Below are positions 3,316 to 64,000 of a stretch of 64,000 nt of DNA, piece by piece. Each line of letters begins with the position of its first letter. Within the stretch, counting starts at the first letter, position 1. A model generated the notes under the pieces. It saw only the letters and a program-made list of their open reading frames with translations. It had not been told where the DNA came from and searched no databases. The DNA is taken from positions 515,921 through 579,920 of the forward strand of contig NZ_RJJW01000001.1 of NCBI RefSeq assembly GCF_003781945.1, written 5' to 3'. The stretch comes from Halorubrum sp. CSM-61. Lineage in GTDB: Archaea > Halobacteriota > Halobacteria > Halobacteriales > Haloferacaceae. Made by a program: the position numbers and the translations under genes.

Positions 3316-3379
3316 CCTCAATTATGTGGACAATACGTTGCAACTGCCAAATACGTTGCCGAACGCTACGCCATCCTGT

Positions 3380-3411
3380 TTGTTGAACCCCTGAGAGGGG
3401 TGCGGGGGTAA
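3380..3411 (+). promoter_or_regulatory. leader hairpin H1 (GAGGGGTG class)
   Basis: Just upstream of the gene at 3434 lies ACCCC, then a TGAGAGGGGTGCG-type loop, then GGGGT. It can pair as a short stem exposing GAGGGGTG. It matches six better copies elsewhere in the window (8546, 9804, 10128, 11199, 11620, 38324). The role is unknown. Confidence 0.5.
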
Positions 3412-3433
3412 CCGAACCGCCTGCGAGCAACGA

Positions 3434-4120
3434 ATGAACGGGAATGTACCTATGGCCAGTTCGGAATCGGTTCCAGTCGCATCGCCAGGTCAGGCTCACC
3501 GAGACGCAGTCGAATACGTCGGCTTCCGCGTCGACGGCCAAGCCGTCGTCCTGAACCTCTCGGAGCATCGGCGACTCTCCCTCAAGCGCAGTCTGGACCT
3601 CGTCAACCACAGTCCGAGCGGGTTTGAGTGGGGGTACAGTGGTAGCGGGCCCGCCCAGCTCGCGTGCGCGCTCCTCCTCGACTACTACGACGATGAGCAG
3701 TTCGCCCGTGAGCACTACATCGCGTTCCGGAATCAGGTGGTCTCACAGCTGGAGTGCGACGGTGCAGCGGCGTGCTGGCACCTCACTGGCGAGGAGATCG
3801 ACGCCGCGATGACGACCCTTACCGACGACGTCGTCGCCCTCGCCGACGGTGGACGGCCGTCACCGACGCTCCCCGAGAACTGGCGAACCGTCTCCCGCCC
3901 TGATCGAAGAGTGTTCCAGCGCGCTGATCGCGACCACTACATCGTGCTCGGGGATGGAAGCGACGAGTGGCTGGTCGTGCTCTGCAGCCAGGGTGACCGG
4001 GCATATCCTGCCCCGCTCGCACATCGGACAGTTGTCGAGGAGGCTGACGTGGAACGGGTAATCCAAGAACTCGCCGAAGAGAGCAACGACCTCATCGAAC
4101 CCCCGGAGGGGGAGCACTGA
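3434..4120 (+). CDS. DUF6166-like haloarchaeal protein
   Basis: This is a 228-residue protein. Residues about 20-130 (YVGFRVDGQAVVLNLSEHRR, then LDLVNHSPSGFEWGYSGSGPAQLACALLLDYY) resemble the DUF6166 domain found in plasmid and virus genes of many prokaryotes. That domain has no proven function. The C-terminal half is acidic and less conserved. A second ATG at 3452 (MASSESVP) is an alternative start. The stop overlaps the next ATG by one base (TGATG), so this and the following small genes are probably co-transcribed as an accessory operon. Confidence 0.65.
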   Translation: MNGNVPMASSESVPVASPGQAHRDAVEYVGFRVDGQAVVLNLSEHRRLSLKRSLDLVNHSPSGFEWGYSGSGPAQLACALLLDYYDDEQFAREHYIAFRNQVVSQLECDGAAACWHLTGEEIDAAMTTLTDDVVALADGGRPSPTLPENWRTVSRPDRRVFQRADRDHYIVLGDGSDEWLVVLCSQGDRAYPAPLAHRTVVEEADVERVIQELAEESNDLIEPPEGEH

Positions 4121-8540: not shown

Positions 8541-8568
8541 GTTTTGCGCCTGCGATGGGTGCAGGCGC
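8541..8568 (+). promoter_or_regulatory. leader hairpin H2
   Basis: GTTTT is followed by a perfect 8-bp stem, GCGCCTGC (8546-8553) with GCAGGCGC (8561-8568), enclosing the loop GATGGGT. It lies about 27-50 bases upstream of the next start. It is the cleanest member of the recurring leader family. Confidence 0.65.
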
Positions 8569-8594
8569 GGTTCGGAACGCATTGCGCCTGTGGG

Positions 8595-9764
8595 ATGGAA
8601 TCCATGAAAGACCCAGAGACAGCTACGGTTTTCGCAGGACTCGATGGGCGAACCAACACCGAACTACCCGAGTGGTACGCCGAGCAACACGGTGGTCCCG
8701 AACCGATCAGCTTCAGTGCGGCGATTCGAGAGCTTCCACAGGCAATCGACACAGCAGTCGCGTATCGCAATCCACACTCCGACGAGTGGGTCGAAACGGA
8801 GCGGTTCAACGCGCTCGTCGAACCGAGTCGTGCCCGCTCACAGGGCCGTGACGCGGACGCGGAGACAGACCCGTTATTCCATATCCCGACTGACTCGTAC
8901 TCGATCATCAACCCGGTCGACGTCTACGGGCCCCTAGAGGAGGTCCTCCGGGAGGAGACCATCGACGGGACGCCGCTGGGCGACGTGATATTCGGCGAGA
9001 TCCGACGCTACCGGGGCGGCGGCGAGGTCCACATGGACATCATGTTCGACGGCCTCGAGGTGCACCTTCCTGGCCGGTCGGACCCGATCACGATGGGCGT
9101 CACGTCGGGCTACGACTTCTTCGGCGAGCACGCCGTCTACGTCGAGGGTTTCGCTCAGGATGGCTACTGCTCGAACACGATGCGCTCGCTCACCGACAAG
9201 GAGGTCATCAAACACGTCGGCGACGTGCGGAACTTCCGGAGCTGGTGGGAGGAACTCCTCGCACAGGTCGAACTCGTCGCCGACGATCTCTTCGAGTTCA
9301 TCCGGGACGCCCAGGACATCGAACTCGACTTCTCTGAGCTCCCGTTCACCGTCACGGAGTTCTACACCCTGCTGGGGTTCCCAGACTACCTGGCCGAGCG
9401 TGCCACCGGCGATGCAGAAGCCAATGCGGCGTCGCCCTTCGAGATCGATATGTGGACGCTGCATTCCGGTGCGACGTACGCGCTTACCCACTTCTTCCAG
9501 GGGAAAGAGGGGGCGTCCCTCGATCAGTACGTCCGCATCGCCAACGACATCCTGTTCAACCCGGAAGGCACGATCGAGCGCGTCGAGCAGGCCTACGAGC
9601 AGCAGCTAGAGGCGGACGGTGACGACGGGTCACAGGCGTCGCTGGCCGGCGAACGAGCGCTGGCGAGCATCGAGCGCGTCAGCGACGACCTGCAGGAGAA
9701 AGTCGAGCAGTTCGAAGAACGCGAGGACGCGTTGCGTGAGCGGTTCCAAGAGGCGATGGCCTGA
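8595..9764 (+). CDS. hypothetical plasmid-type protein, possibly DUF932-like
   Basis: This is a 389-residue acidic protein. Starts are possible at ATG 8595 or 8604; the frame upstream runs through the leader hairpin, so it is not counted. The middle (IFGEIRRYRGGGEVHMDIMF, then TMGVTSGYDFFGEHAVYVEG) faintly resembles the DUF932 phage/plasmid proteins. The C-terminal 60 residues are coiled-coil-like (LAGERALASIERVSDDLQEK). Haloarchaeal plasmids often carry this kind of gene beside ArdC-like genes, as here (11686). I assign no function. Confidence 0.6.
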   Translation: MESMKDPETATVFAGLDGRTNTELPEWYAEQHGGPEPISFSAAIRELPQAIDTAVAYRNPHSDEWVETERFNALVEPSRARSQGRDADAETDPLFHIPTDSYSIINPVDVYGPLEEVLREETIDGTPLGDVIFGEIRRYRGGGEVHMDIMFDGLEVHLPGRSDPITMGVTSGYDFFGEHAVYVEGFAQDGYCSNTMRSLTDKEVIKHVGDVRNFRSWWEELLAQVELVADDLFEFIRDAQDIELDFSELPFTVTEFYTLLGFPDYLAERATGDAEANAASPFEIDMWTLHSGATYALTHFFQGKEGASLDQYVRIANDILFNPEGTIERVEQAYEQQLEADGDDGSQASLAGERALASIERVSDDLQEKVEQFEEREDALRERFQEAMA

Positions 9765-9792: not shown

Positions 9793-9823
9793 CTGTTTTT
9801 CTCGCCCTCGAGGGGTGGAGGGC
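9793..9823 (+). promoter_or_regulatory. leader hairpin H3
   Basis: A T-tract (GTTTTTCTC) precedes stem GCCCTC (9804-9809) / GAGGGC (9818-9823), with loop GAGGGGTG. It ends eight bases before the start of the next gene. Confidence 0.65.
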
Positions 9824-9830
9824 TACCGAG

Positions 9831-10052
9831 ATGGAACAGTCCACGATTAGCGACGGGAGTGACGACGAATTCCCACCTGAGAAGCGTCTTGAAGCACCGA
9901 ATTACCGATTGGTCAAGGCCGGTATCGCGACGATCCCGGATATGGAAATCCTCCAAGAGTGTGTTGCCTACGAGAACGCCCACCAGAATCGGACGCAGAT
10001 CCTGCGCCGGCTCAAGTGGAAGGCTGAAGAGCTCCGTGAGGGCGAAGAGTAA
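9831..10052 (+). CDS. small hypothetical protein, 73 aa
   Basis: The product, MEQSTISDGSDDEFPPEKRL and onward, contains PNYRLVKAGIATIPDMEIL and ends in a helix rich in Arg/Lys and Glu (RTQILRRLKWKAEELREGEE). It has ordinary haloarchaeal composition, an ATG, and the leader hairpin directly upstream. I do not recognise the family. Confidence 0.6.
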   Translation: MEQSTISDGSDDEFPPEKRLEAPNYRLVKAGIATIPDMEILQECVAYENAHQNRTQILRRLKWKAEELREGEE

Positions 10053-10061
10053 GCTCTGTTC

Positions 10062-10104
10062 TTAACCAACAGGTTCCGCGTGAGTTCCCCCTATTGTTGG
10101 TTAA
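10062..10104. promoter_or_regulatory. dyad operator O1 (TTAACCAACA / TGTTGGTTAA)
   Basis: TTAACCAACA (10062-10071) and its exact inverted copy (10095-10104) are separated by 23 bases. The same pair occurs at 38275, 42988 and 51520, each time upstream of an accessory gene. Here leader hairpin H4 follows directly. It is probably a binding site for a dimeric regulator or a promoter element. Confidence 0.75.
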
Positions 10105-10118
10105 CCCGCTGTGTCTCG

Positions 10119-10148
10119 GTTTTTCGGGCCCCTGAATGGGTGCGGGGC
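10119..10148 (+). promoter_or_regulatory. leader hairpin H4
   Basis: GGTTTTTCGG precedes stem GCCCC (10128-10132) / GGGGC (10144-10148), with loop TGAATGGGTGC. It follows dyad O1 and precedes the gene at 10177. Confidence 0.6.
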
Positions 10149-10176
10149 AGCCAGCAGCGACCTCGCGATCCCAATC

Positions 10177-11178
10177 ATGTCCCTCGATTTGAGTACAGAC
10201 TCCAGCACGGCTAGCGACATTGCTGCCGCCAGACAAGCAGACCATATAGCGTTCCTTCATCGAGCTCCATTCGCGGCTGATGCTCTAGCTCTCGGATTTC
10301 TCCCCGGGTTTCGGGAAGACTGTGGGTATCAAGCAGAACAGTACATGAACCTCGAAATTCCTGTCGGGATGCTCGACAACGACTTCCGGAATCCCGACCT
10401 GGAACGGTTCGTCGAGCGATTCTTCGAGCACGAGCCTCGGGTCGGTGTCATCGGCGACATCTACGAACCAGCTGACGTCGACGCCCACGTCGCTGCGGCT
10501 CGTGAGATCCGAGCGAGCTATCCCAAGGCCGAGCTCATCGTCGTTCCGAAGTCGCGGGCGGTGATCGACGCGATACCCGAGAACCTCGTCCTCGGGTATT
10601 CACGGGGATACGCCGACCGGCTGGCCCACGAGTTCTCCGATCCAGCTGATTGGAGAGGGCGGCGCGTCCATATCCTCGGTGGGAGTCCGCCCAAGCAGCT
10701 CGACGCCATTCGACAGCTGACCAGACCGACACTCACCGACGAGCCACCGGCCGACATCGTCGGCATCGACTGGAACGGCCTGCATCGCGGCGCACAGTTC
10801 GGTGAGTTCTGGACGGCCGACGGCTGGGACGACAGCGGTCGCGACGCCGACCACGTCACCGTCCGAAAGACGGTGCGCCACAGCCTCGCTCGCGTCCGTG
10901 AGTTTTGGAGGACCCACGGAATCTGGCCCGAAACGACACCGCGAGACGAGGGGCTCGACGTCGAGTACAAGGGACCGAGTCCTGCCGATCTCGAGGACGC
11001 TGCCTGTACCGAGTGCGGGACGAACGTCTGGCGAACTCGCCGCGGCCCGTACGTCGCCGAATACGATACCGGCGCAATCTGTGGATACTGCAGCTACGAG
11101 TGCTACTTCAGCCACCGTCACCGAAACAACCTGGAGGAGATCGCTGGCGAGCAGAGCATCTACCTCCCGCCGGCGTGA
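10177..11178 (+). CDS. DUF6610-like haloarchaeal protein with C-terminal zinc site
   Basis: This 333-residue protein starts at ATG 10177 (MSLDLSTDS), because the frame upstream crosses the leader. The body (EPRVGVIGDIYEPADVDAHV, then AELIVVPKSRAVIDAIPENL and RRVHILGGSPPKQLDAI) reads like an alpha/beta barrel and fits the DUF6610 family of haloarchaeal plasmid and virus genes. The strand order recalls tRNA-guanine transglycosylase-like barrels, but this is only a fold guess. The C-terminus has CTECG and CGYCSYECYFSHRH, a likely zinc site. Function is unknown. Confidence 0.65.
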   Translation: MSLDLSTDSSTASDIAAARQADHIAFLHRAPFAADALALGFLPGFREDCGYQAEQYMNLEIPVGMLDNDFRNPDLERFVERFFEHEPRVGVIGDIYEPADVDAHVAAAREIRASYPKAELIVVPKSRAVIDAIPENLVLGYSRGYADRLAHEFSDPADWRGRRVHILGGSPPKQLDAIRQLTRPTLTDEPPADIVGIDWNGLHRGAQFGEFWTADGWDDSGRDADHVTVRKTVRHSLARVREFWRTHGIWPETTPRDEGLDVEYKGPSPADLEDAACTECGTNVWRTRRGPYVAEYDTGAICGYCSYECYFSHRHRNNLEEIAGEQSIYLPPA

Positions 11179-11190: not shown

Positions 11191-11220
11191 TTTTTCGTGC
11201 CCCCAGAGAGGGCGAGGGCT
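11191..11220 (+). promoter_or_regulatory. leader hairpin H5
   Basis: TTTTTCGT precedes stem GCCC (11199-11202) / GGGC (11216-11219) around CCAGAGAGGGCGA. It is a weaker version of the leader family, lying upstream of the GTG start at 11250. Confidence 0.5.
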
Positions 11221-11249
11221 CCTTCGAGAGTCCTCAGAGGTGACTTCCA

Positions 11250-11597
11250 GTGAGTCAACAACAGCGTCCTGACAACGTCTCGATCGACGAGATCCCGGTC
11301 GATATCGACAACACGCAATCAGCGGAGGTCGATTCCGCCGACGTCCCCGACGAAATCGAATCCATCACCCGTGGGCTCGCCGGTGAGCAGCCGCCGACGA
11401 ATCCCATTGTGGTTCTCAAGGCGGCCCGGTGGTGGTACATTCACGGCAAGGGCGGCACGGATCCCGCCTTCCAGTGGGCAATCGAGTGGGCACGTCACCT
11501 TGCGACCGACATGCCTAGCGACGTCGAGCGGTTCGACGAGTTCCTCGAGTACCTCGTCTCGGTTGGTTTTGCGGACGAACGTCACGAGCTCCGCTAA
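11250..11597 (+). CDS. hypothetical protein, 115 aa
   Basis: The GTG start gives MSQQQRPDNVSIDEIPVDID, an acidic disordered N-terminus. A helical domain follows: NPIVVLKAARWWYIHGKGG, then AIEWARHLATDMPSDVERFDEFLEYL. It is not recognised. It sits between two leader hairpins, so it is a separate leader-gene unit like its neighbours. Confidence 0.6.
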   Translation: MSQQQRPDNVSIDEIPVDIDNTQSAEVDSADVPDEIESITRGLAGEQPPTNPIVVLKAARWWYIHGKGGTDPAFQWAIEWARHLATDMPSDVERFDEFLEYLVSVGFADERHELR

Positions 11598-11610: not shown

Positions 11611-11641
11611 TTTTTTGTGCGCCCCAGAGGGGTGCGGCGCG
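11611..11641 (+). promoter_or_regulatory. leader hairpin H6
   Basis: GTTTTTTGT precedes stem GCGCC (11620-11624) / GGCGC (11637-11641), with loop CCAGAGGGGTGC. It lies upstream of the ArdC/ImmA-like gene. Confidence 0.65.
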
Positions 11642-11685
11642 GTCTGAACAGACGCAGTCGCCGTGAACTCGATTTGGTGAACACA

Positions 11686-12627
11686 ATGGCTACGACTAGT
11701 GACTCGTCGGTCTCCTTCGACCAGACCGACACGCGAGACGACGAGATGAACAGTACCATCGAACAGTGGATCGACGAGCTTGTCGCCGGCGTCGACGACG
11801 CGCAAGCCAGCGCGGAGTTCCAGGAGTGGCTGGACCTCCAGAGTCGTTTCCACGACTACTCCTACCGGAACACGCTCCTCATCAAGCGGCAGTGTCCCGA
11901 GGCGAGCCGGGTGGCGGGCTACCGGACGTGGCAGGAGGAGTTCGACCGCCACGTCACGGAGGGCGAGTCAGCCATCTGGATCTGGGCGCCAATCATCACG
12001 AAGCAGTGCCCGGAGTGCGAGAACTCGCCGAGCTACCACGAGGACAGCGACTGTGACTACGATGAGACGCCGCCCGAGGAGTGGTCCGAGGGGCTGGTCG
12101 GGTTCAAGCCCGCGCCGGTGTTCGACGTCTCCCAGACCGAGGGCGAACCGCTTCCCGACCTGGACACGGAAACGACTGGGGACGCCGGCGACCTCGTCGA
12201 GCAGTTGACTGCCGCCGCTGACGACCTCGGCGTGACGGTGCGGATCGTTCCCGAAGAGGAGTGGACCCACGGCAAGGCGAAGGGCATCTGCGAGCAGCTG
12301 AGCCTCGTCGACGTTCAGCCGCTCGTCGAGGTGCGCGATCGGGAGAACGAGGCCGACCTCGCGCGGACGCTGATTCACGAGTACGCCCACGCCCTGCTCC
12401 ACTTCGACGTCGACGACGACACCGAACGGGCGAAACGCGAGGTTGAGGCCGAAGCCGTCGCGTACGTCGTCGGGCGCTACTGCGGGCTCGACACGAGCGG
12501 GTCGGCATTCTACCTCGCTGCGTGGGAGTCGGACGATCCCGAGGTCATTCGCGAGCGGCTCGGACGGATTAGTCGAACGGCAGAAGAACTCATCGACGTT
12601 CTCGAAGCCCACTCGTCGAACCATTAG
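11686..12627 (+). CDS. ArdC-like N-domain with ImmA/IrrE-type zinc metallopeptidase motif
   Basis: This 313-residue protein starts at ATG 11686 (MATTSDSSVS). Residues about 20-110 (IEQWIDELVAGVDDAQASAE, then FHDYSYRNTLLIKRQCPEA and GYRTWQEEF) match the ArdC N-terminal ssDNA-binding domain. Residues about 220-245 carry LARTLIHEYAHALLHF, an HExxH zinc protease motif of the ImmA/IrrE type, with the downstream Glu in VEAEAVAYVVG. ArdC proteins of conjugative plasmids protect incoming DNA from restriction. A Cys-rich insert (CPECENSPSYHEDSDC) interrupts the N-domain. This protein suggests a transferable element. Confidence 0.8.
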   Translation: MATTSDSSVSFDQTDTRDDEMNSTIEQWIDELVAGVDDAQASAEFQEWLDLQSRFHDYSYRNTLLIKRQCPEASRVAGYRTWQEEFDRHVTEGESAIWIWAPIITKQCPECENSPSYHEDSDCDYDETPPEEWSEGLVGFKPAPVFDVSQTEGEPLPDLDTETTGDAGDLVEQLTAAADDLGVTVRIVPEEEWTHGKAKGICEQLSLVDVQPLVEVRDRENEADLARTLIHEYAHALLHFDVDDDTERAKREVEAEAVAYVVGRYCGLDTSGSAFYLAAWESDDPEVIRERLGRISRTAEELIDVLEAHSSNH

Positions 12628-38274: not shown

Positions 38275-38315
38275 TTAACCAACAGCCCACGATTTGGAAG
38301 TGGCTTGTTGGTTAA
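38275..38315. promoter_or_regulatory. dyad operator O2 (TTAACCAACA / TGTTGGTTAA)
   Basis: The arms are 38275-38284 and 38306-38315, with a 21-base spacer. Leader hairpin H7 follows directly, the same order as O1-H4. Confidence 0.75.
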
Positions 38316-38316
38316 G

Positions 38317-38347
38317 TTTTTCAGCGCCCGCCGAGGGGCGGAGGCGC
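38317..38347 (+). promoter_or_regulatory. leader hairpin H7
   Basis: TTTTTCA precedes stem GCGCC (38324-38328) / GGCGC (38343-38347), with loop containing CCGAGGGGCGGA. It lies upstream of the gene at 38365. Confidence 0.65.
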
Positions 38348-38364
38348 GTTCTGACCTCCGTCGA

Positions 38365-38892
38365 ATGATGACTGAACCCTATCTCACGACGGTTCTTGAG
38401 GAAGCCGAGCGCGTTGCCGAGCAGCACGACCAGGTCGCCCGAACGACAGACAACCAAGCCCACGAGTACCTCCGATACGCCGTCCTCCGGGTGCTCGAAG
38501 GCGAGGCGGACCACCTCCCGGCGGACTGGACGCCGATCGACGGCGTGACCGTCGGTTACGGAAGCGACGAGGCGATGTTCGATAGCTGGGGCTCCAGCGA
38601 AGACTGGTGGGAGACCCTCCCGCCGCAAGAAGCGTGTACACGCTTCAGGGTGTTCTTCCCGGACGATCACCAGACGGTTCCCCGCGTCATCGTCGACGTG
38701 ATGGCAGCACTCGGGGCGTGGCGTGTCTGGATCGGGAGCGCTGCCGTGTGCGGCTCCTACGACCATCGCGAGCGCCGCGAAGTCTACCTTTTGACAGCAA
38801 GAGAGTCCCCGCCGTTCGTGGCGGGTGTAAATCGCGTAAGCTCCGATGAGAACCACTGCGTTAATGCTGATCTTGATTCTCGAACGAGATGA
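38365..38892 (+). CDS. hypothetical protein truncated or altered at its 3' end
   Basis: This is a 175-residue protein from ATG 38365 (MMTEPYLTTVLEEAERVAEQ). The conserved-looking body is HDQVARTTDNQAHEYLRYAV, then WETLPPQEACTRFRVFFPDD. The last 40 residues (ARESPPFVAGVNRVSSDENH and on) are less acidic and read less like native sequence, and a TnpB element follows directly. The element may have replaced the true end. Family unknown. It is controlled by dyad O2 plus leader H7. Confidence 0.55.
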   Translation: MMTEPYLTTVLEEAERVAEQHDQVARTTDNQAHEYLRYAVLRVLEGEADHLPADWTPIDGVTVGYGSDEAMFDSWGSSEDWWETLPPQEACTRFRVFFPDDHQTVPRVIVDVMAALGAWRVWIGSAAVCGSYDHRERREVYLLTARESPPFVAGVNRVSSDENHCVNADLDSRTR

Positions 38893-40354
38893 TTAGGTTC
38901 TACTTTCACCGTGGTTGGCTGACGTTCAAGTTCCAAACGAACATATCTGGAAATGGCTGATGAAGCGCACCAACACGTTCGCCGTGCGTCCCCTCTCCGA
39001 TACGGGAGAGCAACTGCTACGGGACCTGTTGGACGCTTCTGCCGCTCTCTGGAACGAGATCAATTATCAGCGCCTCATGCGCTACAACGACGAAGACGGC
39101 TTTGAGGACGAGGACGTGTGGAACGCCGACACCGGCAGTCTCGAAGGCAAGTACAAAGGTGTGCTTGGCGCGTCCACCGCCCAACAGGTAATACGCAAAA
39201 ACAGCGAAGCGTGGCGGGGGTTCTTCGATACAAAGAAGGCGTATCACGACGAGTCGAACACATCCGTTACGGAACACCCGGAACCGCCGGGCTTCCGTGG
39301 TAACAAAGACGATGGGCGTGTCCTCAAAGGCGTCATTCGCAACGACGCATACACGACTGAATGGGGCGAGCGGTCCCGACTTGAGATACTGGTCGGGAGC
39401 GAGTTGAAAGACAGATACGACCATACCGGGCGGCTCCGGCTGGAAATCGTTGGCGACCCGAATTGGCCCAACTACCAGAAGCAGGGCCGGTTGGACCTGT
39501 GGTACGATGAGACTGATTGCACCTTCCGAGCTTCACAACCCGTGACTATTACTGATGCACGGGCGACTCCACTGGCCGCAGAGAAGGCCGCTCTGGATAT
39601 TGGTGCAAACAATCTCGTCGCCTGTACCACCACGACCGGCGACCAATACCTGTACGAAGGTCGGGACCTGTTTAACCGCTTCCGTGAGACAACGCGAGAA
39701 ATCGCCCGGTTACAATCCAAGCTACAGGAAGGCCAATACAGTAGCAAGCGTATCCGGCGGCTGTATCGGAAGCGAACCCGCCGCCGCGACCACGCACAGG
39801 AAGCGTTGTGTCGTGACCTAATCGAACGGCTGTACGAGGACGGCGTCGATACGGTGTATATCGGTGGACTGACCGACGTGCTGGACACGCATTGGTCGGT
39901 CGAAACTAATGCCAAGACCCACAACTTCTGGGCGTTCAAGCAATTTACTGAGCGGCTGGCATGTACTGCTGAGGAATACGGTATCTCGGTGGAAGTCCGG
40001 TCGGAAGCGTGGACGAGTCAGGAGTGCCCGCAGTGCGGTTCAACAGACCAAACGAAACGACATCAGGACACACTAACGTGTCCGTGTGGATTCGAGGGAC
40101 ACGCCGACCTCACAGCGTCAGAGACGTTCTTGAAGCGGCACACAGAGAAGGCAGTCAGGCCGATGGCACGGCCCGTGCGGTTCCAGTGGGACGACCACAA
40201 CTGGTCGGGGACACCACACCCTCACGAAAGTCCCAAAGAACAGCGCACAGACCCGAGTACCGTCCACCATGACGGGAATGTTGCCTCCGGCGAGTCGTAG
40301 ACGGGATGAGACTCCCACGGAGGAAACCCCGGCGTAAACGCGGGGGAGGATGTC
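38893..40354 (+). mobile_element. IS200/IS605-type element with TnpB only, copy 1
   Basis: The right end is at GGGGGAGGATGTCA (ending about 40354), matching the right end of copy 2 (GGGAGGATGTCA, 51353-51364). Just inside, CCCCGGCGTAAACGCGGGG can fold as a hairpin. The left end is placed only roughly, after 38892. There is no TnpA transposase, so this is a non-autonomous or IS1341-like element. The 3' part of tnpB plus the right end should encode the omega RNA guide. Confidence 0.65.
38960..40300 (+). CDS. tnpB: TnpB RNA-guided nuclease-like protein, copy 1
   Basis: This is a 446-residue protein. The start [20 protein letters not shown] is decided by alignment with copy 2. The RuvC-I Asp is in [18 protein letters not shown] bridge-helix-like basic region follows ([20 protein letters not shown]). 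The zinc finger is CPQCG and CPCGFEG, and the last RuvC Asp is in GHADLTAS. At the place of the middle RuvC Glu (usually VxxEDL) it reads [11 protein letters not shown], with Gly instead of Glu. Copy 2 also lacks Glu there. It may be nuclease-dead, or may use a Glu from elsewhere. Confidence 0.88.
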
Positions 40355-40386
40355 ATCTGTGGCCGGAAGGCCATCCGGTCGAGGAA

Positions 40387-40755
40387 GTGCTCCACGAGCG
40401 GCGCAGTAGCCCGGCGGAAGCCGTCGCGCCGGACGGTGGCCGAACGGGCGACGTTCGCGACCGGCTAGTCGTCGACGAGAACGCAGAGTCACAGGACGAT
40501 CTCGAGCCCCGAACGAAGCGTGCTGTCGCCGAAGCGATGGACGTCTCGCTCCTCTCGAAAGGTGGCCGCTACGAGGTGCAGTCCGCGTCCGGCAACAGGT
40601 ACGAAGTCGACGTCATCGACGAATCGTGTACCTGTCCCGACTGGCAGCAGCGCTCACCCGAGGGCGGCTGTAAACACCTGCGTCGCGTCGATCACGAGAT
40701 CAAACGGGGCCGTGTACCCCGACCAGACGGCCGGCTCCCAGCTGACTCGAACTAA
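40387..40755 (+). CDS. SWIM zinc-finger protein
   Basis: The C-terminal half has the SWIM motif: YEVDVIDESCTCPDWQQRSP then GGCKHLRRVDHE, i.e. CxC-xn-CxH. SWIM domains bind DNA or protein. Haloarchaeal relatives begin near LEPRTKRAVAEAMDVSLLSK, so the core domain is complete. The true start is unclear: the frame is open from ATG 40306, but that ATG lies inside the TnpB right end, and GTG 40387 is the first start outside it. The element probably removed the native promoter and start. Confidence 0.65.
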   Translation: MLHERRSSPAEAVAPDGGRTGDVRDRLVVDENAESQDDLEPRTKRAVAEAMDVSLLSKGGRYEVQSASGNRYEVDVIDESCTCPDWQQRSPEGGCKHLRRVDHEIKRGRVPRPDGRLPADSN

Positions 40756-41983: not shown

Positions 41984-42904
41984 TCAGGATTCGATTTTGT
42001 AGTCAGCCGCCAGTTTCTGAAACTCGTCCCACTCCGGGAGCCGGTCGTCGTCGACCTCGCCGTGCGTCTCGAGGTAGCGGAGCAAGGCGTCGATTTCGTC
42101 TTCGAGACCATACTTCGCCGCCTGCTCTCGGAGGTCCGCCTCGTCGACGTCGACGTGGCTGAGCAGGAGGAGACAGTACGAGCGGTGGCGGCTGCCGTCG
42201 TCGATCAGTAGTGTGTGACAGCAAAGTTCCGCCGGCGAGACTGCGTCAAGATCCTCGGAGTAGAAGTAGTAGCGATGGCCGGTGAGCAGGAACTGGAGGT
42301 CATAGGCCGCGAATCGAGCGAGGCCGGTTTCGTGGAACGCCGCCGCGTCGATCTCCGTCTCGGTCTGGGCGAGGAATTCGTCGTAATCCTCCCAGAGAAT
42401 CGTCCCCTTCGGGGCGACGGCTTCGAGGCGCTGGCGATGCAGCTGGTGTGCGAGTTCACGGGCGAACGCGTGGAGGCGGTCGAAGTCGGCGTTGAACTCG
42501 TAGTGGCCGTCGGCCGTCCCGACGAGCCCACGGTCACGAAACCGCTTGAGGACGCGGTTAACCGTGTTGCGGTAGTTGTCGCTCCGGTCAGCGACTTCGG
42601 AGACGGTTCGCGGCTGGTCGAGGTAGTACAGCACCTCGAGTGCCTTGCCCGTCAGCAGTTCGGGGAAGTCGATGTGGGAGTGCTGGCGGACGAGGTCCTG
42701 GTAGAGTTCGACGGCGCGAGCATCCGACGGGACGACTCGTTTTCGCCGGCCATCGCGTTCCGTGTAGACGAGCCCTTTCTCGACGAGGTCGGCGACGGCA
42801 CGAGAGAGGTAACTCTCGCTGTGGTCGAGCTTCGTCGCGAGTTCGGAGATCGTGTCGCCGCGGTCGACCGTGGCGAGGACCTCGAGTTCGATGCGCCGGA
42901 GCAC
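41984..42904 (-). CDS. two-winged-helix transcription regulator (MarR/IclR-like)
   Basis: This is a 306-residue protein. The first winged helix (about 1-65) is EVLATVDRGDTISELATKLD then SYLSRAVADLVEKGLVYTER. The second (about 85-150) is EVLYYLDQPRTVSEVADRSD then TVNRVLKRFRDRGLVGTADG. The C-terminal half (about 160-300) is a nucleotidyltransferase-like or ligand domain seen in haloarchaeal plasmid regulators. The start is GTG 42904, which lies at the edge of an 18-bp-arm dyad around the promoter, so autoregulation is very likely. Confidence 0.78.
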   Translation of the reverse strand: MLRRIELEVLATVDRGDTISELATKLDHSESYLSRAVADLVEKGLVYTERDGRRKRVVPSDARAVELYQDLVRQHSHIDFPELLTGKALEVLYYLDQPRTVSEVADRSDNYRNTVNRVLKRFRDRGLVGTADGHYEFNADFDRLHAFARELAHQLHRQRLEAVAPKGTILWEDYDEFLAQTETEIDAAAFHETGLARFAAYDLQFLLTGHRYYFYSEDLDAVSPAELCCHTLLIDDGSRHRSYCLLLLSHVDVDEADLREQAAKYGLEDEIDALLRYLETHGEVDDDRLPEWDEFQKLAADYKIES

Positions 42905-42987: not shown

Positions 42988-43028
42988 TTAACCAACAAAA
43001 CTATGGATTCGTGGGGCGTGTTGGTTAA
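42988..43028. promoter_or_regulatory. dyad operator O3 (TTAACCAACA / TGTTGGTTAA)
   Basis: The arms are 42988-42997 and 43019-43028, with a 21-base spacer. It ends 14 bases before the gene at 43043, closer than O1 or O2, and without a clear leader hairpin. Confidence 0.75.
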
Positions 43029-43042: not shown

Positions 43043-43366
43043 ATGTCCTACGAACCCCCGACCCCACCGGCGAACCTTCCGACGGAGATCGTCAACACGC
43101 TCAACGAGTCGGACCCGGAGCAGCTCCGAGACGTTGCGACGTACACTGAAGCGCTCGCCGAGCACAAGGAACGAGAGACCCGTCTCGAGGAGTCGGCAGA
43201 TCAAGAAGAGGTCGAAGAGCGACCGGACGATCTCCCGGACGACGTCCCTGCCAAAGCGACGATCACGATCAAGGAGATCAACGACAACCGCTACTACTAC
43301 TGGCAGTGGCGGGAGGGCGATACGGTGACGTCAAAGTACAAAGGACCGGTCAACCCAAACGAATAG
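43043..43366 (+). CDS. hypothetical protein, 107 aa
   Basis: The N-terminal helical region is LPTEIVNTLNESDPEQLRDV then ATYTEALAEHKERETRLEES. An acidic linker follows, then a conserved-looking beta end, KATITIKEINDNRYYYWQWR, finishing YKGPVNPNE. The end resembles DUF6788-type proteins with a WQWREG core that binds nucleic acid or acts as an antitoxin-like partner; this is a weak match. It is under dyad O3. The last eight codons reappear after the next gene. Confidence 0.6.
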   Translation: MSYEPPTPPANLPTEIVNTLNESDPEQLRDVATYTEALAEHKERETRLEESADQEEVEERPDDLPDDVPAKATITIKEINDNRYYYWQWREGDTVTSKYKGPVNPNE

Positions 43367-46160: not shown

Positions 46161-48335
46161 CTACGACAGTTCGTTGGAGGCTCCGAACGAGCTCAAAACG
46201 GCGTCCCTCTCACCGGAGAGCTCTCGATGAATGTCGGACCGATCCCACCCGAGCGGTGAAAGCACGCTCTCGACGGCTCTGACCAGCTGCGTTTCGTAGT
46301 ACGAGGCGTCGTAGGTCTCGATCTCCTCGTGGGCGAGGGCGACACGGTCTCGCGAGGATTTCTCGTCGTCGACGACCACGTACTCGATATCCTGGCCCGG
46401 GTGGACTGCCAGGTCCTGCTCGCGGGCTCGCTTCAAGGCGGCCACGTTCTGGGTATTCTGTGAGTAGCCTTCCAGCGGCTTGGAGACACGGTTCCGCTCG
46501 ACGAGCCGCTCCACTGCTACGGTGCCCGCCTGTAGTTCGCCGATTGCTCGTTCGAGCCGTCCGAGTACCGCGTCCGGTGACCGCGTGGCATCGAGCTGGT
46601 CGAGACAGTCCCGCTGGACGTCCTCGATGAACGGCGGGGTCGAGCGCTGCCGGGCTTCGATGCCTCTGACCTTGAAGTCGTCGTCGCCGGCGACCTTCCC
46701 GAAGTACTTCGTCAACGCCCCGGCGTCGCTCTCGCGCTGCGGGACGAACGCCACCCAGTCGTAGTGAGCCTCGTGTTCGAGCCGAATCTCGACGCGTTCC
46801 GTAATCTCCGTCGCAAGCGTCCCGAGGTCCTCGCGGTCCTCGTCGTCGACGTCAGGGTCCGGCGTCACCCAGATGGAGTCGACGATGCCGTGGACGACCC
46901 GCCAGCCGCCAGCTTCCAGCCGCTGTTTCGCCGTCAGCAGAATCTCGCGAGCGAACGCGTTGATTGCTTCGTGGCACTCGATGCGGCCGAACTTCGCGTT
47001 GCTGAACCCTTGATAGCCGAAGCAGGCGACGAGGATCCACTTCAGCGCACCCGACCGTCCCTCGAGTTCCGCCAGTCGGTCCTCGTCGGGGTTGTCCCGT
47101 TCCTTCTCGTGACGGATGGCCGCCTTGATCTCGTCGCGCGCGTCGATGATCGGCTGCAGCACGTCGACGAGGTAGCCCCGGTCGTCGCAGATCGAGTACC
47201 CGAGGCCGGGGACGTCGTCGCGGTCGCTGTGGCACTCACACCGGATGACGTCCGGCGAGACGTTCCGGGTACAGATGATGTTCGGGTACAACGAAGAGAA
47301 GTCGAGTTCATGGACGTTCTCGTGAAGCCCGACCTTGGGTGCGAAGATGAAGCCGCCACGGTCGGCGTCGTGGAGCGTCCCCATCGGCTTGTAGAACTCG
47401 TGACGCCAGAAGTTCCATGGCACGAGGACGTCGCGGTCGTGGGCCTCGCAGATCTGGATCGCCGTGAGCACGTTCCCGATCGACGCCCACGCAAGTTCCT
47501 GGACGGGCTTCTTTGAGCGCGACACGAGGTCGAGAACGCCGTCGAGGTTCGTCTCTCCGTAGAAGAACGTGTTCGACTCGTCGATAATCGCCCGGCCGGG
47601 CACGTTGTACCGCGCCGGCGAGTGGCCGACGCGGCCGTAGCTCGAGTACGTCGACCGGCTCGCGAGCTGCTGGTAGTCGACGTCCGGCCACCGACTCAGC
47701 GAGAAGCCGTCGACGCCGGCGTCCGTCGCCATCTCGTACAGGGTCGGGACGATCTCGCTGGTTGAGCAGACCAGGACGTCCGGATCGTGCGCTTCGAGTG
47801 CCCCTTGGACGGCGGTCAGGATATCCGTCGGCGAGCCGGTGACGGTGTCGCCGGCGACGGACAGTTCCTCGTAGACGTCGTTGCTCGTTTCGGTCACCGG
47901 AACACTGAGACAGAGCGTCGACAGCTCGCTCGCCGGCGTCGGATCGGCGCCGGTCTCCAGACAGTACCGAAACTCTCGCGAAAAGTCCACGTTGAAACAG
48001 GCGAGATCCCCGACTGGATAGGCCGACAGCTGACGCGCCTGCCGGGCGAGTGGAGTGACGCGATCGATGTGGGCAACGTCGACTGCGAGAACGGCCTCCT
48101 CGTCTCGTCGAAAGCCGGGGCGTCGCGCAACCATCTCGGTCGCGACGACGTCCGGGTGCTGGTCGTACACCGACTGGAGTGTCGTGAGGTCGAGGTCGGC
48201 ATCAGGGTCGCGAGCGGCGACGTAGAAGCGTGGGGTGTAGTCATCGCGCTCGGTCGCGACGGCGCCGTCGGCGGTTGCCTCCCACTCCAGGACGCGGCCG
48301 TGGTCCAGAAAGTCGATACTGAACGGCATCGTCAC
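46161..48335 (-). CDS. polB: B-family DNA polymerase (plasmid PolB2-like)
   Basis: This is a 724-residue protein. Motif A is ELDFSSLYPNIICTRN, and motif B is CFGYQGFSNAKFGRIECHEA with its usual Lys upstream (ALKWILVACF). Motif C reads VVHGIVDSIWVTP, keeping one Asp where most B polymerases have DTDS. No ExoI DxE is visible in the N-terminal part (LSTLCLSVPVTE), so proofreading is probably lost. This combination fits archaeal PolB2-type enzymes thought to have altered activity. The start is GTG 48335 overlapping the upstream stop, or ATG 48329. It forms an operon with 48332 and 48640. Confidence 0.85.
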   Translation of the reverse strand: MTMPFSIDFLDHGRVLEWEATADGAVATERDDYTPRFYVAARDPDADLDLTTLQSVYDQHPDVVATEMVARRPGFRRDEEAVLAVDVAHIDRVTPLARQARQLSAYPVGDLACFNVDFSREFRYCLETGADPTPASELSTLCLSVPVTETSNDVYEELSVAGDTVTGSPTDILTAVQGALEAHDPDVLVCSTSEIVPTLYEMATDAGVDGFSLSRWPDVDYQQLASRSTYSSYGRVGHSPARYNVPGRAIIDESNTFFYGETNLDGVLDLVSRSKKPVQELAWASIGNVLTAIQICEAHDRDVLVPWNFWRHEFYKPMGTLHDADRGGFIFAPKVGLHENVHELDFSSLYPNIICTRNVSPDVIRCECHSDRDDVPGLGYSICDDRGYLVDVLQPIIDARDEIKAAIRHEKERDNPDEDRLAELEGRSGALKWILVACFGYQGFSNAKFGRIECHEAINAFAREILLTAKQRLEAGGWRVVHGIVDSIWVTPDPDVDDEDREDLGTLATEITERVEIRLEHEAHYDWVAFVPQRESDAGALTKYFGKVAGDDDFKVRGIEARQRSTPPFIEDVQRDCLDQLDATRSPDAVLGRLERAIGELQAGTVAVERLVERNRVSKPLEGYSQNTQNVAALKRAREQDLAVHPGQDIEYVVVDDEKSSRDRVALAHEEIETYDASYYETQLVRAVESVLSPLGWDRSDIHRELSGERDAVLSSFGASNELS

Positions 48336-48637
48336 GGGTTCGCGTCCGGTGGGGTACTCTCCTGGTCATCGCGTGCTGCGACCGCGGCTTCGAGCTCCTC
48401 GAGGCGTTCCTCGTGGTCGTCGAGGCGGGCCTCCTGTTCGATATCGATGCTGAACAGCGCCGGCAGCAGCGGATTCTGGTGGTTCAACAGCCCGCTCGCG
48501 TCGGCGTGCTCGCGGGCATACTCGAACAGCCGGTCGAAGCGCGGCTGGTCGCGACGCCGCAGTGCCCGGCGGAACTCCGCCCAGCGCTCTTCGATGGCCC
48601 GGAGCGCATCCCGGTACGTCGGGTTTGTGCGCCCCAT
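48332..48637 (-). CDS. DUF8156-like small helical protein
   Basis: This 101-residue protein starts MGRTNPTYRDALRAIEERWA. The basic helix region EFRRALRRRDQPRFDRLFEY is followed by DASGLLNHQNPLLPALFSID and an acidic coiled tail (ARLDDHEERLEELEAAVAAR). In haloarchaea this kind of gene lies between a RecA-like gene and polB, as here, with end overlaps on one side. It is probably a linker or accessory subunit for the polymerase. Confidence 0.72.
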   Translation of the reverse strand: MGRTNPTYRDALRAIEERWAEFRRALRRRDQPRFDRLFEYAREHADASGLLNHQNPLLPALFSIDIEQEARLDDHEERLEELEAAVAARDDQESTPPDANP

Positions 48638-48639
48638 CG

Positions 48640-49590
48640 CTATCGGCCTCCTGTCCCGGTCGCGGTCCACGCATCGAGCAAGGGGTCCGCAGTGGCCGCC
48701 ACCGTCTCACCGTTAGCTGTGACCCCTGTCCCGACACCCTCCGGGGTCGGCGTCGACGGCGCCGGCGTTGTCGGTTCCACGCCGACCTGCGTGGCGCGTG
48801 CCACGAGCAGCTGCCGCCAGTACGCGAACGTCGTCTGGTAGTACGCGCCGTCGTCGACGGGATAGACGAGCGTCTCGAAGTCCTCGCCGACGACCCGTGG
48901 CCCCATCCGAGTCTGCTCGCACTCCAGATGGTGGTCGGCGACCGTCGCGACTGGCTCGGTGAATTCGTTTCGTTCGTTTCGCGTAACGAGCACCGGGATG
49001 TCGTACCCCTCGGCGTAGGTCGCCAACCGGGCGAGAGTTCGGGCCTGGAGGGTTTTCGCGTGGGTTTCGCCGAGGGTATCGTCGGCGCGGTACTGGGCGT
49101 CGACGGCCGGCGCGATGATGAGGGCGGGCGTGTGGGGCGATGTGTTCTCGTCACGACCTGGCGCCCCTCGACTGGCCGCCCCGGCATCGACGGTGGACAT
49201 CTGGATCGACTTGTTCACTGCCGTAGGGAGATCACAGACGGCGCCGTAGTGCTGGTAGGCGGTGAATCCGCGGGCGACGTGAATTCGGTTGAGCAACCGT
49301 TGACTGGGGGCTATCTGCGTCAGCGTGGCCGTCGTCGCATGGCCGTTTGCGTCAACCCAGAATGCAGGCCCGCCGTGTAGGAGGAGATGGTCGAGTACCA
49401 ATGACTGAAGGATCGGAACACCCCGATCACCTTCGACATCGAGGAGCGTGATACCGTCCTCAAGGGAGGGAAGCAGCATTCCGTCCGTCGCGGGATCGGC
49501 TTGATTAGCCAGATTCTGGTTGCGGTCAGCGCTCCGTGTTGGCTGGTCTACCGCCAATCGGTTCGACGTCGATGTGGAGCGGTTGGGCAT
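48640..49590 (-). CDS. RecA-like protein without a clear Walker A, PolB partner
   Basis: This is a 316-residue protein. The fold order resembles RecA/RadA family ATPases: GITLLDVEGDRGVPILQSLV, LLHGGPAFWVDANGHATTAT, LNRIHVARGFTAYQHYGAVC, and a late YDIPVLVTRNERNEFTEP. The P-loop GxxGxGKT is missing (VEGDRGVP instead). The C-terminus is Pro/Thr-rich. ATG 49590 is preferred to 49608. The set RecA-like / small protein / inactive-looking polymerase parallels bacterial ImuA-ImuB-DnaE2 translesion cassettes; that parallel is inference. Confidence 0.62.
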   Translation of the reverse strand: MPNRSTSTSNRLAVDQPTRSADRNQNLANQADPATDGMLLPSLEDGITLLDVEGDRGVPILQSLVLDHLLLHGGPAFWVDANGHATTATLTQIAPSQRLLNRIHVARGFTAYQHYGAVCDLPTAVNKSIQMSTVDAGAASRGAPGRDENTSPHTPALIIAPAVDAQYRADDTLGETHAKTLQARTLARLATYAEGYDIPVLVTRNERNEFTEPVATVADHHLECEQTRMGPRVVGEDFETLVYPVDDGAYYQTTFAYWRQLLVARATQVGVEPTTPAPSTPTPEGVGTGVTANGETVAATADPLLDAWTATGTGGR

Positions 49591-49816
49591 ACTCCAGTAG
49601 ATGGCCACGTACCAGATAAGCCGCGGCGTGTCGCTTCCGCATTTCCAAGGAATGACTGAGTAATGCGGTAAATCGGACTCAGACGCTGGATTTTGGCGAT
49701 CGTCCGAAGGTTTCCGAGAAGGCTTCCAGAATGACCTTGGTTCGGATGATTCGTAGCGAGTGGGCCCATCCTTTCAGGCTAGGCCTGAGCGACAACACGG
49801 CCCCACAATCCAGGTG

Positions 49817-51364: not shown

Positions 51365-51627
51365 CAATGGGCGCGATCTGGGCGAGTGTACTAGTTGTCC
51401 ACAGTCTCGATACGCTTCGCCGTGGCGCTTCCGCGGTTCAGGAAAGCAACGAGATAGATGGCAGCCCGATCTCGGTCGTCGTGTTTTGCGGACGATTGAC
51501 TATCTCCGCTGGCGCTCAGTTAACCAACACACCGAATTTTCCGGGGCTGTTTGTTGGTTAAGGGCGTTGCTGCTGACGAGATTCCTGTGCGACCACGTTG
51601 AAGATGCTTCCCTCCGAACTCCTCGGT
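51365..51627. other. intergenic region before SRAP gene
   Basis: No gene is supported. It holds dyad O4 and the probable SRAP promoter. The ORF at 51361-51561 runs through the dyad and looks random. Confidence 0.5.
51520..51561. promoter_or_regulatory. dyad operator O4 (TTAACCAACA / TGTTGGTTAA)
   Basis: The arms are 51520-51529 and 51552-51561, with a 22-base spacer. It lies 66 bases upstream of the SRAP start. Confidence 0.75.
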
Positions 51628-52314
51628 ATGTGTGGCCGGAACTCGCTCTTCATCGACCAAGCAGACCTCGAGGCCCGCTTCGATGCCGAGGTCGTCGCGG
51701 ACGGCGGGTACACACCCCGATACAACATTGCGCCTGGCGACGACCTCCACATCATCACGAACGAGGCCTCCGACGAAATCGACGCCTATCACTGGGGATT
51801 GATTCCGTTCTGGGCGGACGAACCCGAGGAGGGCATCATCAACGCTCGCTCCGAGACTGCCGACGAGAAACGCGTCTTCGAGCGGGCGTGGGAATCACGT
51901 CCCTGTCTGGTCCTCTCGTCAGGGTTCTACGAATGGAAATCGCCAAATGGCGGGTCGAAACAACCCTACCGGATTTACCGCGAAGACGACCCTGCCTTCG
52001 CGATGGCTGGACTCTGGGACGTCTGGGAGGGCGACGACGAGACGATCCCGTGCGTCACGATTCTCACGACGGAGCCGAACGACCTGATGAACTCAATCCA
52101 CGACCGGATGCCGGTCGTCCTCCCGAGGGACGCCGAATCCGACTGGCTCGCCGCAGATTCGGACACCCGCAAGGAACTGTGCCAGCCGTACCCGAAGGAC
52201 GATCTAGATGCCTACGAAATCTCGACGCGGGTCAACAACCCCGGCAACGACGATCCCCAGGTCATCGAGCCGCTGGACCACGAGCAATCGGGCCTCGGCG
52301 AGTTCAGTTCTTGA
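51628..52314 (+). CDS. SRAP-family abasic-site protein (HMCES/YedK-like)
   Basis: This is a 228-residue protein. MCGRNSLF gives the Cys2 that becomes the N-terminal catalytic residue and crosslinks abasic sites in ssDNA. YNIAPGDDL, YHWGLIPFWA, INARSET and SSGFYEWKS (Glu) and a late NSIHDRMPVVL (His) are all present, so the active site is intact. The start must be ATG 51628, since Met must directly precede Cys2. It sits under dyad O4, next to orc1/cdc6 copy 2, consistent with protection of replication forks. Confidence 0.9.
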   Translation: MCGRNSLFIDQADLEARFDAEVVADGGYTPRYNIAPGDDLHIITNEASDEIDAYHWGLIPFWADEPEEGIINARSETADEKRVFERAWESRPCLVLSSGFYEWKSPNGGSKQPYRIYREDDPAFAMAGLWDVWEGDDETIPCVTILTTEPNDLMNSIHDRMPVVLPRDAESDWLAADSDTRKELCQPYPKDDLDAYEISTRVNNPGNDDPQVIEPLDHEQSGLGEFSS

Positions 52315-55773: not shown

Positions 55774-56199
55774 ATGCCCATCTTCAACGTCGACACGGAG
55801 GAGATAACAGCATTCGACTTCGGGAACACATACCTGTTCACAGCGTACTTCGACGAAGAACAGCTCTTCAACCAGCTCAAAAAGTACTACAATAGGGACA
55901 AATACCGTTTCAAAGTCCCAGAGGAAGACCTGGAAGAGGTACAACAAACACTGGACAACTACTTCTACGAACTGGTGCTAGAGGACTCCCCTGAGGAGTA
56001 CTGTGTCGTCGCAGACGAAGAAACAGATTCAAACGCGATACTAAGTAACTCAGTAATGAGAAAGCAACGCCGGAACCACGATATCTACTTAATGAAAGAC
56101 AAACTATCACTCGAGCAAGCCGTTGAACAGGGCGCTATTCGGGTAGAAAAATCGGAGGTCAACGCAGGGAATCTAGAATGGAAAACCAACGGATCATAG
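55774..56199 (+). CDS. hypothetical protein upstream of dnd genes
   Basis: This is a 141-residue protein. It begins MPIFNVDTEEITAFDFGNTY, then EEQLFNQLKKYYNRDKYRFK and EEDLEEVQQTLDNYFYELVL. A Shine-Dalgarno-like GGAGGG lies just upstream. Not recognised; it does not resemble DndB or PbeABCD as I know them. It lies 82 bases before dndC on the same strand and may be part of the defence island. Confidence 0.6.
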   Translation: MPIFNVDTEEITAFDFGNTYLFTAYFDEEQLFNQLKKYYNRDKYRFKVPEEDLEEVQQTLDNYFYELVLEDSPEEYCVVADEETDSNAILSNSVMRKQRRNHDIYLMKDKLSLEQAVEQGAIRVEKSEVNAGNLEWKTNGS

Positions 56200-56281
56200 C
56201 GGGGCCACTCGTCAATCCACCGGTAGGTACGGGTAGATACAAGTATCTCCCGAACAGCAATCTTACCAAGAGGATATCATC

Positions 56282-57763: not shown

Positions 57764-57776
57764 CGGACAAGGCTAC

Positions 57777-59804: not shown

Positions 59805-60202
59805 GCCAGAAATTCAACCGGATCACTATCGACAGCGACGCCACCAACCAGTTGAAAATGCTGAAAGCCAACACTGGGATGACACCCAACTACCTCGGCA
59901 GGATTGGCTTCTGCTACTCCCTCAATGAGCCACGACCTCCAAACCCGCAGCAGTACGACACTGACGGGCAAACCTTCAACCGGTACACCCTGCTCGGGGA
60001 GCACGACACCCTCTACATGGCTCTCCTGAAAGAACGACTGATCCAGGAAGGGAAAGACCCTGAAGAGGACCTGTACGAAGAGTTCGTCGCACACCTCAAC
60101 CGAGGCGTCGAACGAGTGGCAGGTAACGTAAGCGACCTAAGCGACTTCTACGACCTCGTTCCCGGAGAGATAAAAGGACTGGAAGCCAAACAGGAAGGAT
60201 AA
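59801..60202 (+). CDS. dndE: DndE
   Basis: This 133-residue protein matches DndE: NRITIDSDATNQLKMLKANT, TPNYLGRIGFCYSLNE, TFNRYTLLGEHDTLYMALLK and a closing FVAHLNRGVERV. DndE binds nicked dsDNA and is needed for modification. It starts inside the dndD stop (ATGA) and ends four bases before dndA. Confidence 0.9.
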   Translation: MSQKFNRITIDSDATNQLKMLKANTGMTPNYLGRIGFCYSLNEPRPPNPQQYDTDGQTFNRYTLLGEHDTLYMALLKERLIQEGKDPEEDLYEEFVAHLNRGVERVAGNVSDLSDFYDLVPGEIKGLEAKQEG

Positions 60203-60205
60203 CGA

Positions 60206-61384: not shown

Positions 61385-61532
61385 ACGAGGCACCGACCAA
61401 CCCCGCTTGTAACCTAGTCAACTGGTTGATTCAGCTAATCACTACACTATCTTTTCTGGTGTATCAGTAACCGTCTGCGAAACCGATGGGCGGCAAAGGA
61501 TTCAAATGGTCAGTGAGTGACCTACATCATAG

Positions 61533-63500: not shown

Positions 63501-63504
63501 CCTA

Positions 63505-63696
63505 ATGACAGATCAACGCGATATCGAAGAAATAGCGGACGACGTACTCGACGAGTACGACCAGTCAGAGGATTTCAAAGACCGGTTCATGAACTTCTAC
63601 GAGAACACGGTTGAGAACAATTTGGGAGGCACCTCGCTGGAACGACTCATCGACAACGTGGAGCTATCCGAGGAGGAGGAACTCGATGGATCTTAA
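63505..63696 (+). CDS. small acidic protein, PbeB-like position
   Basis: This 63-residue protein begins MTDQRDIEEIADDVLDEYDQ and ends in SLERLIDNVELSEEEELDGS. It is acidic and helical. It starts five bases after the helicase stop and overlaps the next gene by 11 bases, so all three are co-translated. It is not recognised by sequence; position suggests PbeB. Confidence 0.7.
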   Translation: MTDQRDIEEIADDVLDEYDQSEDFKDRFMNFYENTVENNLGGTSLERLIDNVELSEEEELDGS

Positions 63697-64000
63697 AATC
63701 ACAGGCATACGGTACGAGAACATTCGGGAGTTCGAAAATGTAGAACTCGACTTCGCTAATGGGTCAAACGACAACCCGCATCATATCTCTCTCGTCCAGA
63801 TGCCGAACGGTACAGGGAAAACAACCACCATGAACCTGATCCGGACAACCCTCCTCGGCAAAGAGATGGATCAGGACGAGGTCAGATCCTACCAGCCAAG
63901 CGACTTCGACGCCATCGAAGGAGCATTCGAAATAGATCTCGTATCCTCCGGTGAACCATTCACACTCCGTCTCGAACTTGACTACGAGGTCGGAGATCAC
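63686..64000 (+). CDS. P-loop (SMC/RecN-like) ATPase, PbeC-like, 3' truncated by window
   Basis: Only the first 105 residues are present. MDLKITGIRYENIREFENVE is the first strand of SMC/RecN-type ATPases. LVQMPNGTGKTTTMNLIRTT is Walker A, and LLGKEMDQDEVRSYQPSDFD follows. The start is ATG 63686, overlapping the previous gene. A P-loop ATPase in third position fits PbeC of the archaeal phosphorothioation-based defence operon. The rest, and any PbeD, lie beyond the window. Confidence 0.8.
   Translation, partial: MDLKITGIRYENIREFENVELDFANGSNDNPHHISLVQMPNGTGKTTTMNLIRTTLLGKEMDQDEVRSYQPSDFDAIEGAFEIDLVSSGEPFTLRLELDYEVGDH

Follow-up and report, generated by a model that had tools for sequence, protein, structure and literature searches.

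The closest described parallels to the locus studied here come from the pLS20 plasmid family, where the establishment genes, ardC among them, have upstream either the operators of an autoregulated repressor (EGeRS2/Reg) or a structured element that stops read-through (EGeRS1) (PMC8708921). In the recipient cell, ArdC of R388 counteracts restriction (PMC7213743), and the intergenic repeats of the halovirus HF2 have been shown to carry promoters (PMC8707807). Little is known, in turn, about how genes of archaeal plasmids and proviruses are coordinated. A sequence-only reading of a 64,000-nt stretch of Halorubrum sp. CSM-61 (the window, hereafter) had noted a compound control region, and we confirmed the order dyad, T-tract, GC hairpin and gene at positions 10062–10177 (site A) and 38275–38368 (site B).

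At site A, the dyad (10062–10104, no strand assigned; TTAACCAACA-N23-TGTTGGTTAA) starts 9 bp past the stop of ORF 9831–10052 and is followed on the plus strand by a T-tract of five thymines (10120–10124) and a GC hairpin (10127–10152; RNA fold of −11.2 kcal/mol), which are conserved in homologs. Downstream lies gene A (10177–11178, plus strand), for a 333-aa protein of the DUF6610 family (Pfam PF20314, E = 1.3e-78). At site B, the dyad (38275–38315, no strand assigned; TTAACCAACA-N21-TGTTGGTTAA) precedes a T-tract, also of five thymines (38317–38321), and a GC hairpin (38324–38347; −17.0 kcal/mol), on the plus strand and conserved in homologs of gene B with and without the dyad. Gene B (38365–38892, plus strand), starting at ATG 38365 or 38368, belongs to no known family and represents the N-terminal part of a product of 271–276 aa when full-length in relatives; it is interrupted by an IS1341/TnpB-type insertion at about 38960–40300 (TnpB ORF 38960–40300), and its C-terminal part, at about 40332–40752, corresponds to residues 135–274 of the relatives. 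The spacing of the two copies, described as similar, is only roughly alike: 15 nt separate dyad and T-tract at site A vs. 1 nt at site B, and the T-tract is about 53 nt from the ATG at site A vs. 43–46 nt at site B. Within the window, the compound does occur twice, but its modules are more frequent, because dyads are also found at 42988 and 51520, and the T-tract with hairpin at about 8542, 9796, 11191, 11611 and probably 3378.

The search for the combined pattern that had been proposed as a check, done as GTTGGTTAA-N0-22-GTTTTT-N0-6-GCCC on 243 Halobacteriales genomes together with a list of the genes behind it, was positive in 63 of them, and in none when the pattern was read backwards. In the fetched loci, these genes were from the families of DUF6610 (25), gene B (15), phrog_13083 (10), ORF 11250–11597 (3), ArdC-like proteins (2) and a 240-aa protein (2), plus single cases, the counts being unique sequences and not independent events. 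The same element order thus recurs in many genomes, and the gene families behind it, at least six in number, are unrelated, so the elements were correctly described as reusable and the genes as unrelated, and their reuse on accessory genes, including ArdC-like genes of anti-restriction type, also holds. Conversely, the idea of one expression cassette was not supported as stated: most dyads lack a hairpin, most hairpins lack a dyad, and some homologs of genes A and B are headed by the hairpin alone, which indicates two independent modules. Our preferred reading, to which we give even chances from these sequence comparisons, is that the compound would consist of two control modules of haloarchaeal megaplasmids and viruses, independent of one another and placed side by side, with the dyad as an operator for a 107-aa protein encoded in the window.

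The dyad conforms to TTAACCAAC[A/G]-N20-23-[T/C]GTTGGTTAA, a strict inverted repeat of 9–10 bp. The window contains four dyads with 8-bp arms vs. 0.00 expected from dinucleotide shuffles of the window, and 10 single arms with up to one mismatch vs. 1.09 expected. In addition to sites A and B, site C (42988–43028) is 14 bp upstream of the start codon of the gene for the 107-aa protein and site D (51520–51561) lies upstream of an SRAP (YedK/HMCES-like) gene (51604–52314), without a T-tract hairpin; no strand is assigned to either. SRAP was rejected as a consistent dyad gene, since a 95% identical homolog in another locus (L047) has no dyad. The source genome holds 10 dyads on three contigs, and the dyad was present in 140 of the 243 genomes, with up to 30 per genome, and in 50 IMG/VR stretches from viral contigs, while the pattern read backwards had no match in the same 243 genomes. 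Among the 230 unique sites of the fetched loci, 222 had a spacer of 20–23 nt, and the spacers share no sequence; the arms are invariant in these loci, which were selected by exact arms, and a search allowing up to three mismatches found nearly all deviations at arm position 10, which is A or G. Fixed arms around a free spacer of narrow length favor a protein-bound DNA site over an RNA fold, and the dyad is very probably bound by a specific factor. No Rfam 15 family of structured RNA matched the window at the gathering score, and a literature text search with the arm sequences returned no relevant match. One locus (L207; G152:C2:325248) has a dyad with a spacer of 13 bp, 8–9 bp below the usual, before a 62% identical homolog; we make no claim of helical phasing from it, because 13 bp is only roughly one helical turn below 21–22.

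Clustering of dyad-adjacent genes singled out the 107-aa orphan ORF (43043–43366, plus strand) as encoding a candidate dyad-binding regulator. Close homologs (E ≤ 1e-30) occurred in 111 of the 140 genomes with dyads vs. 2 of the 103 dyad-free genomes; 29 genomes had only the dyad and 101 had neither (odds ratio of 193, uncorrected for phylogeny), and in 14 of the 140 no homolog was found even at E = 1e-5. In all of 19 close homologs picked blind to dyads, the dyad was 13–17 bp before the ATG; a twentieth (L206) has its start codon mutated to ATA and a decayed left dyad arm. Across all fetched loci, 51 of 56 homologs had an upstream dyad, with a conserved AAACTATG box. At site C and in these loci, the spacer contains AAACTATGG, which adjoins the left arm about 40 nt before the ATG and is a plausible promoter box for the 107-aa gene. 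Additionally, halovirus ChaoS9 encodes a 50% identical homolog, and the dyad there stops 1 bp short of the ATG. In plasmid pNRC200 of the model strain Halobacterium salinarum NRC-1 (L256, 5900–6003), a copy of the 107-aa gene lacks the left dyad arm and keeps the right arm and the AAACTATGG box, and is in effect a natural half-site mutant.

The protein itself had no match in Pfam, NCBIfam or the PDB, and no DNA-binding domain was recognizable in it. Its structure model is of moderate quality (pLDDT 77, pTM 0.40), with two helices followed by three strands predicted, and fold searches with this model gave nothing significant (best Foldseek hit to the PDB, E = 0.5; best VIA-align Z = 3.7).

Genomes having only a divergent homolog of the 107-aa protein contained dyads with both arms altered alike, genome-wide. 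Thus, all six dyads of one genome (G144), whose homolog is 38–45% identical over the aligned part, were of the CTAACCAAC/GTTGGTTAG type, as were 11 of the 12 inspected in a second one (G020), and both dyads of a third (G206) were CTAACCAAG/CTTGGTTA[A/G]. In this dialect check, the eight genomes without a detected homolog of the 107-aa protein had no dyads. When all copies change together, a trans-acting factor of altered specificity is the expected cause, and these dialects are the strongest evidence, at the level of sequence, for a cognate protein, although they do not by themselves prove that it is the 107-aa protein. Together with co-occurrence and the dyad upstream of its gene, they suggest that the binding factor probably is the 107-aa family. 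A second candidate is the product of the divergent gene at site C (41984–42904, minus strand), a MarR-type protein of the HVO_2833 family with two winged-helix domains. Its domains and position would suit a dyad-binding protein; however, close orthologs occur in only 67 of the 140 genomes with dyads, plus nine without, and the 107-aa gene keeps its dyad where the MarR-type gene is absent (e.g., G052 and G210), which leaves it scarcely probable that this protein, and not the 107-aa one, binds the dyad. With the 107-aa protein as the preferred factor, its autoregulation through its own dyad is fairly probable, judging from the position of the latter.

The location of dyads with respect to genes is less simple. 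They are intergenic in 97% of cases, and 50% are within 150 bp of a gene start vs. 47% for random intergenic places, by which a general role as upstream operators was rejected. They are as frequent as expected in convergent gaps, with two such cases in the RefSeq annotation of pCBA1229, and about one third have a stop codon at 25 bp or less, vs. 12% at random. These tests are based on crude gene calls, although convergence is insensitive to errors in start positions. For lack of a preference for starts, and given this proximity to stops, a controlling effect on the gene downstream is putative except at the 107-aa gene, and so are the two layers of control that had been suggested for the compound. 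That the dyad controls genes A and B is a proposition that could go either way. In some relatives, a dyad is found 156–189 bp upstream of the homolog of a 322-aa ORF, or at the stop of a DNA polymerase gene; both have counterparts in the window, where a family B DNA polymerase is preceded on the same strand by ORFs of 101 and 322 aa, in a mutasome-operon-like arrangement (46161–49608).

Proximity to stops and presence in convergent gaps make possible a role as insulator or 3′ end, or in recombination. In the first case, the dyad would belong to the gene upstream of it and lie at its 3′ end, as a protein-bound insulator, road-block or terminator, and the compound would join the tail of one gene to the head of the next instead of placing two layers on one gene. 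Dyads are indeed concentrated near upstream stops, with 34% within 10 bp in tandem gaps vs. 9% for positions drawn at random from those gaps, and 36% vs. 21% in convergent gaps; a TAA stop is inside the dyad arm in 24 cases, and the dyad is 9 bp after genes like ORF 9831–10052 even where no DUF6610 gene follows (L065). This does not account, however, for the dyads found 13–17 bp upstream of the 107-aa gene, in many cases between divergent genes, nor for site B, where the upstream gene differs from that of relatives and the dyad stays with gene B, and we consider a 3′-end role unlikely.

Stop codons beside or inside the arm also resemble integron cassettes, and the dyad could be an att-like recombination or cassette junction at which accessory genes were inserted, with the 107-aa protein as an accessory factor. 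One locus (L261) contains a two-gene insert between two dyads, the ChaoS9 homolog adjoins int2, and in the window an insert of 25.6 kb reaches up to the left edge of the dyad of site B; the left end of this insert, however, has no dyad. This segment (12628–38274), with sulfur-trafficking and transport-like genes among others, parts the ArdC-like gene from the dyad and gene B; relatives L258, L260 and L262 have them side by side. Gene adjacency across dyad gaps was 0.147 vs. 0.236 for other gaps, and not significantly lower (p = 0.16). To our knowledge, arms with a 20–23 bp spacer fit neither the core sites of tyrosine recombinases nor the attC core, and a junction is quite improbable. Very improbable, likewise, is a segregation or architectural (centromere-like) site bound by the 107-aa protein, for which the overlap with a promoter would only serve autoregulation. 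The many intergenic copies scattered over replicons, indifferent to gene direction, agree with such a site, but the copies are also on viruses, are thinly spread and unclustered, and many have fixed positions before particular genes. A separate low-GC block at the end of the window (55774–64000) contains large ORFs and a gene resembling those for cysteine desulfurases, and by reading only it is suggestive of a phosphorothioation (Dnd/Ssp) system.

The second module, a conserved T-tract and hairpin element spanning about 25–40 bp, has six clear copies in the window and precedes at least eight gene families overall, mostly without a dyad. Its consensus is about G-TTTTT-C-n-GCGCC..GAGGGGTGCG..GGCGC, 31–90 nt before the ATG. 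Copies without a dyad, all on the plus strand, occur at 8542–8572, before a phrog_13083 gene (8595–9764) that has only the hairpin here and both dyad and hairpin in relatives; at 9796–9826, before ORF 9831–10052 (73 aa); at 11191–11227, before ORF 11250–11597 (115 aa); and at 11611–11648, before the ArdC-like gene (11686–12627). A weaker one on the same strand (3378–3415) precedes a DUF6166 gene (3452–4120), in a gap divergent from an Mrr gene. These five families, DUF6610, gene B and others make up those headed by the hairpin. In relatives, hairpin-headed genes form co-directional blocks of tens of kilobases. Hairpin orientation over a whole replicon, examined as a sign of an ssDNA promoter, is uniform within blocks, but pCBA1229 has blocks in both directions.

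The hairpin arms differ between gene families and yet pair, although pairing was partly used to find them. Covariation within families was weak, with one compensated pair in gene B and none in DUF6610 for the alignment used. RNAalifold found no structure in a mixed MAFFT alignment of 42 hairpins, because the arms misalign, and our search model for the hairpin (R1) is consequently one of primary sequence. In many cases, the C-run has two alternative G-run partners (CCCC-GAGA-GGGG-TGC-GGGG; e.g., at 11611 and 3378), by which two mutually exclusive hairpins are possible. The T-tract varies as TTTTT, TTTAT and TCTAT, a loose fit to the haloarchaeal TATA box. Transcription from the haloarchaeal core promoter starts 24–28 nt past this box. 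We also considered a separate TATA box, 27 nt to the 5′ side of the T-tract, and rejected it, as there was no AT-rich peak in 54 dyad-less elements. From the T-tract variants and the lack of this upstream box, we lean toward the T-tract being itself a TATA-like box, with the hairpin before the start site and transcription starting near the end of the hairpin.

From the modules, their conservation and co-occurrence, the covariation of the arms and the spread of the compound, all present in the sequences, we infer binding, repression, timing and hairpin action as follows. The dyad would be a sequence-specific DNA site, most likely recognized by the 107-aa family protein. At its own gene, the AAACTATGG box is inside the dyad, whose end is about 14 bp upstream of the ATG; a bound protein would therefore exclude TBP/TFB and lead to self-repression. 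The T-tract and hairpin, heading many genes of the co-directional accessory block, including the ArdC-like gene, could act as a core promoter with a TATA-like T-tract, or as a leader preventing read-through and shaping the 5′ end of the mRNA. Where the modules are stacked, an occupied dyad would silence the gene behind the hairpin after the regulator has built up, and the result would be a burst of expression on entry into a new cell, as in the establishment regulons of bacterial plasmids. Such an establishment role, which we propose by analogy, is possible, with the balance somewhat against it. The widest form of this proposal is more doubtful: an order-wide haloarchaeal regulon of plasmids and tailed viruses, consisting of a new DNA-binding family, a split dyad with dialects and a hairpin element that times the entry expression of anti-restriction and accessory genes, as an archaeal establishment program.

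Because more than half of the sampled genomes share a strict split site, for which there are a matched orphan protein and natural arm variants, the existence of a plasmid-wide regulon can be tested directly. If true, it would provide haloarchaeal genetics with a tight, orthogonal repressor-operator pair, and the control elements would mark accessory genes, probably including anti-defense genes.

Several known systems resemble these modules in part. The class I and II intergenic repeats of halovirus HF2 (PMC8707807) are also repeated intergenic elements of a haloarchaeal mobile element, but they have CTTTAAGT and CCCTTTAC cores, are limited to one virus genus and contain no dyad or hairpin of the present form. 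The Frpo ssDNA promoters from the leading regions of F and ColIb-P9 are likewise hairpins before leading-region anti-restriction genes; those, however, are bacterial sigma-70 promoters formed by folding, and here no folded promoter could be drawn and there is no known transfer origin. Concerning transfer, the source genome had no match to the VirB4-type PF12846, and plasmids of relatives are typed as MPF_T by PLSDB.

The likeness to the pLS20 family (PMC8708921) is wider. As in EGeRS2/Reg of p576, a small plasmid-encoded regulator, here a candidate and putatively autoregulated, is accompanied by repeated operators, here putative, before accessory genes including ardC, which we found as a sequence arrangement before DUF6610, gene B, phrog_13083, genes like ORF 11250–11597 and, in two loci, ArdC-like genes. 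Nevertheless, the present system is archaeal, its candidate operator is an inverted repeat of 9–10 bp with the arms 20–23 bp apart and not the TTATCCCnnTTATCCC of p576, and the 107-aa protein, unlike the ribbon-helix-helix Reg, was not assigned to that fold by any search (no Pfam or NCBIfam match). As in EGeRS1 of pLS20, a conserved inverted-repeat element directly precedes each gene, including ardC, although EGeRS1 spans 400–600 bp with complex folding and the element described here is a single hairpin of 20–26 nt after a T-tract. Since the fold of the regulator and the sizes of the elements set it apart from the family, we propose that the locus works like an establishment regulon, and not that it is one. 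In contrast to the pLS20 family, both types of element coexist here, stacked on the same genes.
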